From Parasphingorhabdus halotolerans (GTDB lineage Bacteria; Pseudomonadota; Alphaproteobacteria; Sphingomonadales; Sphingomonadaceae), in the NCBI RefSeq assembly GCF_012516475.1, contig NZ_CP051217.1:1612001-1676000 (forward strand): a DNA stretch of 64,000 nt. Direction: 5' to 3'. The notes below the pieces were generated by a model. The model did no database searches. It was not told the origin of the DNA and saw only the letters and a program-made list of their open reading frames with translations. Numbering within the stretch: the first letter of the stretch is position 1; each line of letters begins with the position of its first letter. This document shows, in pieces, positions 57,868 through 59,882 of this stretch. The position numbers were made by a program, and so were the translations under genes.

Positions 57868-58122
57868 TTAATCGACAATCAAACCAATCGCTAGATAGAT
57901 CAGGATCGCAGAGCCAAAGCCGAAGATGGTGGCAAGTACGAAAATGATACGCAACAGATTTGCATCCATACCGGTCCAATTTGCGAGACCCGAGCATACG
58001 CCCATAAGCTTGCCATTGGCCTTGTCGAGGTGCAGTTTGTTTTTAGTCGTGTTGGTCATGGTATCTTTTTTTCTTTCTGTTGAAGGGAGCGGAGTGGGCC
58101 AGCTTTTCTTTTCGTCTGCCAT
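57868..58122 (-). CDS. PspC domain-containing protein
   Basis: This is a small protein with a single PspC domain: LHLDKANGKLMGVCSGLANWTGMDANLLRIIFVLATIFGFGSAILIYLAIGLIVD, including one strong membrane helix. PspC proteins belong to envelope-stress responses. I chose ATG 58122 (84 residues) because it overlaps the stop of the upstream 39-residue peptide gene (TGATG), implying coupling. The internal ATG at 58059 (63 residues) is possible. It is the last gene of a four-gene leftward set with three tandem small peptides. Confidence 0.85.
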   Translation of the reverse strand: MADEKKSWPTPLPSTERKKDTMTNTTKNKLHLDKANGKLMGVCSGLANWTGMDANLLRIIFVLATIFGFGSAILIYLAIGLIVD

Positions 58123-58241
58123 CAGATCACCAGTGAAGCGGCGGTGGTAGCGGCTGGGCCAACACTGGCACCTACGAATAGAGCTGCTGAAACAAGCGCT
58201 GCGAAAGCGGCTGCGAATGAATTTTGAAGATTATACGTCAC
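58122..58241 (-). CDS. 39-residue hydrophobic peptide, tandem copy C
   Basis: A GTG-started frame of 39 codons encodes MTYNLQNSFAAAFAALVSAA followed by LFVGASVGPAATTAASLVI. AAGGA lies 7 bases upstream, in the same CGAAAGGAAA context as copies A and B. The product has a short polar start and an Ala/Val-rich hydrophobic helix, like a signal peptide or single membrane segment. Its TGA overlaps the pspC start by one base. The function is unknown. Confidence 0.7.
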   Translation of the reverse strand: MTYNLQNSFAAAFAALVSAALFVGASVGPAATTAASLVI

Positions 58242-58269
58242 ATCTGTTTCCTTTCGGGTGTTGGTCAAA

Positions 58270-58389
58270 TTATACGATCAGGGATGCTGCGGTGTTCGCG
58301 GCAGGCGCTACACTTGCACTGACAAAAACGGCAGCGGAAAGAAGAGCTGCAAAAGCTGCGGTTATGTTGCTTTTCAAATTGTAAGTCAT
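58270..58389 (-). CDS. 39-residue hydrophobic peptide, tandem copy B
   Basis: This frame encodes MTYNLKSNITAAFAALLSAA then VFVSASVAPAANTAASLIV, 39 residues, from ATG with AAGGAAA upstream. It shares length, start, helix and the PAA-x-x-AASL-x-[IV] ending with copies A and C. It lies 28 bp before copy C. A Lys and a Ser/Asn-rich N-terminus precede the hydrophobic helix. The role is unknown. Confidence 0.72.
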   Translation of the reverse strand: MTYNLKSNITAAFAALLSAAVFVSASVAPAANTAASLIV

Positions 58390-58424
58390 GGGGATTTCCT
58401 TTCGGGGGATTTTGAATTGTGAGA

Positions 58425-58544
58425 TTAGATGACCAATGATGCTGCATTGCTTGCGGCCGGTCCTACGCTTGCGCCGACAAATACGGCTGCGGAGATAATG
58501 GCTGCAAAAGCGGCTGCGATATTGTTTGAGACATTCGAGAACAT
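58425..58544 (-). CDS. 39-residue hydrophobic peptide, tandem copy A
   Basis: This frame encodes MFSNVSNNIAAAFAAIISAA then VFVGASVGPAASNAASLVI, 39 residues, from ATG with AAAGGA 8 bases upstream. It is the first of the three tandem copies, each 120 bp long and spaced 28-35 bp apart. The conserved part is AAFAA-x-[ILV]-SAA-[VL]-FV-x-ASV-x-PAA, while the N-terminus varies. Coding is supported by three independent copies with kept length and ribosome sites. Confidence 0.72.
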   Translation of the reverse strand: MFSNVSNNIAAAFAAIISAAVFVGASVGPAASNAASLVI

Positions 58545-58808
58545 TTTTAATTCCTTTGGTTAAATCTGGGCTTCGAAGCATTCTCCGAAGATGTCTGATA
58601 CAGTGCATAGCGCGTGCCAGTTTCTATATATCATTCATTATCAGATACTTGGGTGTATATCGAAACTTAACCTATGTTAGTCAAAACCGAAATTTGGCAC
58701 TTATTGCTAACATTTAGCATTTAATGAATGGAGAATGAACAAAGGGCAGTAGCTGCATTGAATTTACTTCTATTCAGCCATGTCCATCGCTAGACATGGC
58801 GCCCTGAT

Positions 58809-59882
58809 ATGACCATCACCCGCCTCACGCTGAAAAATTTCCGCAACTATGCGCAGCTGCGCCTTGAGGCCACATCCGGCTTCATAGTGTTGAGTGGGGA
58901 AAATGGCGCCGGCAAAACCAATATATTGGAGGCTGTATCTTTATTGTCTCCCGGTCGCGGCCTCAGGCGCGCCGGCCTGACCGATATCGCAAGCGAAACA
59001 GGCGCAGGTGATTTTGCGGTGGCTGCCGAGATGGGCGATGTAAGCCTGGGCACAGGGACAAGCGTTGACCAACCGGAGCGACGCAAATCGCGCGTCAACG
59101 GCGCCGCAGTGCCAACCAACGATCTTGCGCAATGGCTTTCCATCTTGTGGCTGACTCCGGCAATGGATCGGCTGTTCATGGAAGGCGCGACTGGACGCCG
59201 TAATTTTCTGGATCGATTGGTTACCGCGTTAGAACCCGATCACGCACACAACTCGGGGCGCTATGACGCAGCAAGACGCGAACGCAACCGGTTGCTGGCA
59301 GATGATAGCACGCCTGATCCCGGCTGGCTCGACGGGCTGGATGGCCAACTCATACAACATGGTGCGGCGATAGCAAAGGCGCGCTTTCGTGCCGTCGATG
59401 CGCTCAATAACTTGCTCGCGGCCAGCGATGATGGTTTGTTTGCTTCGGCTCGCATCGCCCTCGATGATCAGGAATTACGAGACGAAGGTAGTTTGCGTCA
59501 AGCCATAGCATCAAGCCGTTCGGCAGATCGTGCAGCAGGGCGAACCCTACGCGGACCGCATCGGGCAGACATGCGGGTTTATCACCGGGCCAAGGACCAA
59601 CCGGCTGAAAAATGCTCCACGGGCGAGCAAAAGGCTCTGCTATTCTCGATCATTCTCGCCCATGCCGATCTTATCGCCGACCAGCGCGGCAACCGGCCGA
59701 TATTATTGCTTGATGAGGTGGCTGCGCATCTTGATCCACAGCGGCGCGCAGCGCTCTTTGCCAAACTGGCAGCAAAGGGTGGACAAGTATGGCTGACCGG
59801 CACCGAGCCCGAGCTTTTTAAAGATATACCCGAAGATGCCCTGCATTTCCGCGTGAACCAGGGCACCCTCGATTTACGCTAG
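58809..59882 (+). CDS. recF: DNA replication and repair protein RecF
   Basis: The 357-residue SMC-like ATPase loads RecA at gaps. It starts [20 protein letters not shown] and has Walker A GENGAGKT at 30-37. The signature [14 protein letters not shown] and Walker [14 protein letters not shown] with the D-loop lie near 300-312. Length is normal. It stands alone here, not beside dnaA or dnaN as in many bacteria. It diverges from the small-peptide/pspC set. Confidence 0.96.

Follow-up and report, generated by a model that had tools for sequence, protein, structure and literature searches.

The window analysed here, a 64,000-nucleotide stretch of the Parasphingorhabdus halotolerans chromosome (contig NZ_CP051217.1, positions 1,612,001 to 1,676,000), carries three tandem micropeptide genes, a gene for a small PspC-domain protein (mini-PspC) and, ahead of them, a σ54-type promoter with a PspF-type UAS (Table 1). 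A preliminary description had reported three tandem minus-strand frames of 120 bp; their coordinates, equal length, and 39-residue products are confirmed, an AAAGGA ribosome site lies shortly 5' of each of the three starts, and the proposed core (AAFAA-xx-SAA-x-FV-x-ASV-x-PAA) is present in all three peptides, of whose 39 alignment columns 22 are invariant. The TGA of the third micropeptide gene overlaps the ATG of the PspC-domain frame by one base, as had been noted. A cation-efflux gene lies downstream of the array and mini-pspC; the divergent upstream neighbour is presumably recF, a name based on our reading of its RecF/RecN/SMC match and of neighbour names in protein records. The same genome has a second array of two 40-aa peptides outside the window (G000:C1, about 285765-286038; L007 5763-6038), giving five copies in total; this array has the same UAS and σ54 promoter and no pspC.

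Table 1. Features of the micropeptide locus (window positions) and of the psp operon head (positions or loci as labelled in the analysis).
Feature	Position	Strand	Description
PspF-type UAS	58686..58717	−	CTAAATGTTAGCAATAAGTGCCAAATTTCGGT; 32 nt, 65 nt before the −24 element
σ54 (−24/−12) promoter	58604..58620	−	CTGGCACGCGCTATGCA; about 75 nt 5' of the first micropeptide start
Micropeptide gene 1	58425..58544	−	120 bp including stop, 39 aa, ATG start, AAAGGA site; peptide MFSNVSNNIAAAFAAIISAAVFVGASVGPAASNAASLVI
Micropeptide gene 2	58270..58389	−	120 bp including stop, 39 aa, ATG start, AAAGGA site; peptide MTYNLKSNITAAFAALLSAAVFVSASVAPAANTAASLIV
Micropeptide gene 3	58122..58241	−	120 bp including stop, 39 aa, GTG start, AAAGGA site; peptide MTYNLQNSFAAAFAALVSAALFVGASVGPAATTAASLVI
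mini-PspC	57868..58122	−	84 aa, PspC domain at residues 29-83, N-terminal extension with SWP
recF	58809..59882	+	divergent neighbour, upstream of the array
psp head ORF	L078 5507-5686; L240-L268		first ORF after the psp promoter, single-span

The mini-PspC passes the gathering cut-off of PF04024 (58.9 versus 25, E 4e-16) and falls below that of the PspC equivalog TIGR02978 (55.1 bits versus 104); a shorter, 63-aa start within the 84-aa frame is possible. Among 25 distinct listed loci whose PspC contains LDKANGKLM, the one-base stop/start overlap is kept in 23 (22 TGATG and one TAATG), and the remaining two have a longer in-frame frame instead; the N-terminal extension of PspC contains WP in all 25 rows and SWP in 23. 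When the presence of pspC was scored by tblastn across the 22 array loci of the genus with wide flanks, 10 had mini-pspC and recF and 12 had neither nearby; pspC is therefore not obligatory for arrays. The suggestion that the family is coupled to pspC thus gains comparative evidence from the conserved junction but applies to only some of the arrays.

Relatives of the micropeptides were found in all 31 other genomes of the genus that were searched, with 2-11 matches each, and arrays seen in the genus hold 2 to 4 peptides. For sequences grouped by array position (three sets of 27, 24, and 12 distinct sequences), pN/pS (mean/mean) is 0.27, 0.32, and 0.29, respectively, and pN is lower than pS in 350/351, 276/276, and 66/66 within-set pairs, which are not independent of one another; differences within the sets fall most often at codon position 3 and least often at position 2. 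The three window copies compared with one another give pN 0.19 versus pS 0.64-0.77. By this pattern of substitution the three 39-residue frames are protein-coding genes under purifying selection (pN/pS about 0.3), and the matches in 31 of 31 genomes together with this selection rule out chance ORFs. The preliminary description had proposed a real peptide family, to be judged by its conservation in relatives, by selection between copies, and by any drift of the non-coding type. The frames, ribosome sites, and pspC junction prove to be conserved across the genus, similar peptides lie directly 5' of a small pspC in other genera, the copies differ as coding sequences do, and third-position changes dominate (pN/pS 0.27-0.32). 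One locus (L065, 6338 onward; G009:C2) has four tandem peptides, the fourth diverged; growth of this array to four suggests ongoing duplication.

The peptides have no described family in the databases searched, as the preliminary description had supposed: neither Pfam scans of the three window peptides and of 18 family members nor an NCBIfam scan of the three window peptides gave a family over its cut-off, and membership of a Pfam or NCBIfam family was rejected on these grounds. Weak Pfam matches were to OmpA_like, PhrC_PhrF, and SoxE_N. No PspG or PspD profile matched the three peptides in Pfam-A or NCBIfam, or the 18 members in Pfam. An Rfam element was likewise rejected, the window having no match at the gathering threshold. 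A profile search of a large protein collection returned 477 proteins at E ≤ 0.01 among 7985 candidates scored; none of the best 120 of these 477 has a Pfam domain, most are nameless, and some are called 'hypothetical protein'. Within the same best 120, several Qipengyuania and Erythrobacter micropeptides of 39-47 aa (P0011, P0042, P0064, P0094, and P0103) are recorded as 'recombination protein F', most likely an annotation error because a recF-like gene adjoins such modules. No prior description of these micropeptides was recognised in the literature covered, subscription journals and preprints lying outside its scope, and a word search found 'sphingo' absent from the main text of two comparative PSP surveys (PMC11237479; PMC9239133).

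Beyond the genus, 41 peptides were seen at module loci, of which 37 were tallied after four near-identical ones were dropped. All 37 contain a run of 19-23 residues, mostly 20, that is free of Lys, Arg, Asp, Glu, Asn, Gln, His, and Pro, and all 37 end in A, I or V; Lys or Arg occurs at least once in 33 and, by the measure of the script used, never in the tail. The five copies of the P. halotolerans genome have an equal span and even fewer charges than the peptides of other genera. The AlphaFold2 model of micropeptide 2 is one helix over residues 3-38, of moderate confidence (mean pLDDT 76, pTM 0.39). These properties lead us to infer that the peptides cross the membrane once, N-terminus inside.

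The presence of pspC had been taken to link the peptides to envelope stress; that link is supported, but a stronger one, overlooked in the preliminary description, is the σ54/PspF-type control region. Exact YTGGCAC-N6-TGCA sites number nine in the 3.27-Mb genome (reversed control, 0) and include both the window promoter and the promoter between pspF and the psp operon; a YTGGCAY-N6-TGC site lies about 75-83 nt before the first peptide start at each of the two arrays of this genome and in the majority of the relatives scanned. The upstream regions of arrays and psp operons have in common a 32-nt element, roughly CYAA-N4-TRG-N9-CYA, which ends 65 nt from the σ54 element in arrays and 64-66 nt from it in psp promoters.

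For 30 of 30 psp promoters of the genus, a matrix trained on 40 array promoters places its best match at a distance of 64-66 nt ahead of the promoter. With the genome itself left out of training and all 43 of its TGGCAY-N6-TGCW sites ranked, array 1 (29.9), array 2 (27.5), and the psp operon (18.3) take the top three places, and the next-best site scores 4.7 at a different spacing. A psp-trained matrix applied to the genome's sites gives 33.0 for psp, 8.2 for array 2, 2.6 for one other site, and −9.1 for array 1, the window UAS thus scoring poorly by this matrix (−2.2 as reverse complement). Across the 40 array promoters the psp-trained matrix yields group means of −0.7 and 1.1, shuffled sequences averaging about −18 (sd 5.4); taken one by one, arrays have as many as 7 of 60 shuffles scoring as high as the real sequence. 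The two groups, A and B, were formed by peptide spelling, and two loci labelled B (L013 and L026) adjoin recF and belong with A. Under a combined array and psp matrix, the top site in 6 kb of E. coli MG1655 is CCACTTGTTAGTGTAATTCGCTAACTCATCCT between pspF and pspA, 55 nt before the E. coli σ54 element, a stretch that we take to be the PspF UAS; it scores 10.3 and 8.9 (both strands), and the next separate site scores 2.8. By the combined matrix E. coli pspG, a known PspF target, is a weak match, its closest site scoring 0.4 and 4.3. Both pspA and pspG have UASs to which PspF binds in E. coli (PMC3709507).

The PspF of P. halotolerans passes the TIGR02974 equivalog cut-off (484 versus 443.55) and shares 50% identity with that of E. 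coli; PspA, PspB, and PspC of this genome also pass their TIGR cut-offs, and rpoN is present. The array therefore has, by sequence, what a member of a PspF/σ54 regulon is expected to have, namely a −24/−12 promoter and a PspF-type UAS in a genome with pspF and rpoN, and its control by PspF and σ54 is well supported as a prediction. PspF matches occur in 32 of 32 genomes of the genus and in 192 of 197 genomes of the order; PspF being nearly universal, its co-occurrence with the module is uninformative and adds little. A σ70 promoter scan gave 2 promoter-like sites versus 2.6 in shuffles, and a terminator scan gave 4 terminator-like sites versus 1.3 in shuffles, none of them on the minus strand at the end of pspC.

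In the psp operon of this genome pspF is divergent from pspABC, whose separate 127-aa PspC passes the TIGR02978 cut-off, and a small head ORF precedes pspA. Such a head ORF, of 54-60 aa, is the first frame behind the psp promoter in 30 of 30 loci of the genus (two with a longer alternative start), and these head peptides have a span similar to that of the array peptides and a GPA or GPV motif; in other genera 29 of 29 psp loci start with a frame of 50-75 aa, and the UAS gap is 64-65 nt in 26 of 29. Many psp head ORFs end in ELA, EIA or YLA. NCBIfam has no match for the head ORF of the window genome. Alignment of array and psp-head profiles by hhalign gave probabilities of 5% (16-row array profile against genus heads), 63%, and 2% for three head alignments; with probabilities so mixed, a common origin of array and head peptides is not claimed.

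A profile search with the peptides across 197 genomes of the order gave matches in 18 (6 of 63 genera, including that of the window). Promoter and UAS recur for the stronger matches (for example L182-L185, L187, L188, L191, L194, L198, and L201), and such a promoter was not seen at several weaker ones (L190, L192, L193, L195, L196, L197, L202, and L204). Genus g37 (L186, L192, L195, and L196) has related peptides of 42-46 aa without a clear PspF-type UAS, which may stand for another regulator or for a remote family. The mini-PspC profile, which also matches ordinary PspC, finds 106 of the 197 genomes in 33 genera. Among its best 30 loci, 26 in 11 genera (window included) have the full module of a σ54 element, a UAS at a gap of 64-66 nt by the matrix trained in the window's genus only, 1-3 hydrophobic frames with ribosome sites, and mini-pspC; the micropeptide frames are 36-48 aa, mini-pspC encodes 58-75 aa in other genera and 84 aa in the window, and recF adjoins 24 of the 26 modules. 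Of the four exceptions, L224 and L226 are psp operons, each with a 45-aa head frame and a UAS of its own (scoring 17.6 and 14.2); another (L217) has peptides and no recognisable promoter, and the last (L229) showed none of these.

The reading that we consider likely is that the genes encode single-pass inner-membrane micropeptides, expressed with mini-PspC from a PspF-activated σ54 operon and acting as effectors or modulators of the Psp response. Damage to the inner membrane would free PspF from PspA; freed PspF would bind the UAS, 65 nt ahead of the −24 element, and open the array promoter together with the psp-operon promoter, and micropeptides and mini-PspC would be transcribed as one operon from the σ54 promoter. 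The cell would produce several copies of a 39-residue helix that crosses the membrane with a stretch of about 20 residues, flanked by a short N-terminal tail, probably on the inside, and by a short, apolar tail at the C-terminus; mini-PspC would be made by coupled translation. The most likely role of the peptides, in the membrane and together with mini-PspC, is that of Psp effectors or modulators, comparable to PspG in enterobacteria.

The peptide layout could also be that of cleaved, signal-peptide-like precursors, which would be exported by Sec and shed a short C-terminal fragment that serves as a signal in the periplasm or outside the cell, or would probe the capacity of Sec/YidC. In agreement with such a precursor, the short N-terminal part is followed by a hydrophobic span and then by P-A-S-P or G-P-A with small residues before the tail, which resembles a c-region, and 2 of 18 members match the Pfam Rap-phr extracellular signalling family (best E 0.0054); these matches are weak, however, the apolar run of about 20 residues in nearly all tallied peptides is long for a signal peptide, and window copies 1 and 3 have no Lys or Arg at all, which makes such processing unlikely. 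Size and hydrophobicity, and a copy number that varies among genomes (2-11 matches), would suit depolarisers like TisB or YohP, made under stress and lowering the membrane potential while mini-PspC limits the damage; the small membrane protein YohP of E. coli dissipates this potential and increases PspA and PspC (PMC12719787). The toxins considered in that paper are often flanked by positive residues (PMC12719787), whereas the array peptides are mostly uncharged or singly charged; moreover, the window has no Rfam match of any kind, and a depolariser under a depolarisation-responsive promoter would presumably feed itself, so a depolarising role appears quite unlikely.

PspF binding is a prediction, and the genome has eight strong matches to the σ54 activator domain; another enhancer-binding protein of this genome might in principle activate real micropeptides in place of PspF. 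In 30 of 30 loci of the genus, however, the pspF-psp promoter has this UAS at nearly unchanged spacing, the UAS is similar to the site between pspF and pspA in E. coli, and σ54-like sites beside genes that by our reading are flagellar (L121 and L123) lack it; activation by another enhancer-binding protein is accordingly very unlikely. That the small frames are regulatory leaders which only meter the translation of pspC would fit the stop/start overlap but is barely credible given purifying selection on the amino-acid sequence, the tandem copies, and the 12 of 22 wide array loci without pspC.

The preferred reading, PspF-activated membrane micropeptides, invites a broader and more tentative proposal, whose chances we place somewhat below even: nearly every PspF-controlled unit in the window's bacterial family (order Sphingomonadales), the psp operon included, might open with one or more single-span micropeptides, which would form a dedicated and previously unrecognised set of Psp subunits, sense membrane damage or seal it as hetero-oligomers with PspC or mini-PspC, and be tuned in copy number by tandem duplication. 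Because the same layout recurs in related bacteria, the results suggest that a component of a well-known envelope stress response has been overlooked, in a bacterial family with a recurring second PspF-type operon (micropeptides and a minimal PspC) and a small ORF heading its psp operon. These proteins, compact and open to testing, are candidates for two poorly understood steps of the Psp response, sensing and effector action, and public annotation leaves such genes nameless and some of them misnamed. To our knowledge, the PspF regulon is well described in enterobacteria only.

As in the E. coli phage shock response (pspF-pspABCDE), pspF is divergent from pspABC, with a σ54 promoter and a similar UAS; in contrast to E. 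coli, the psp operon here starts with an extra small ORF, and there is a second operon of micropeptides and mini-pspC. In E. coli, pspG is the one known PspF target outside the psp operon (PMC9239133). Like the array peptides, PspG of enterobacteria is a small predicted inner-membrane protein with a PspF/σ54 promoter away from the psp operon (PMC2763126; PMC9239133). The resemblance thus lies in predicted regulation and likely role, yet the array peptides match neither PspG nor PspD profiles and have no sequence family match; they are 36-48 aa with one span, whereas PspG is predicted to have two (PMC2763126), and they are tandem, often joined to a gene for a PspC domain, and found in another phylogenetic group. 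The operon ends with a gene for a PspC domain (PF04024, TIGR02978), but its product is below the equivalog cut-off and has 84 aa in the window and 58-75 aa elsewhere, the genome having a separate PspC of 127 aa. With YohP and TisB (both mentioned in PMC12719787) the array peptides have in common that they are short, hydrophobic, and linked to envelope stress; they differ in their few charges, PspF-type promoter, tandem arrangement, and recurrence with pspC across genera.
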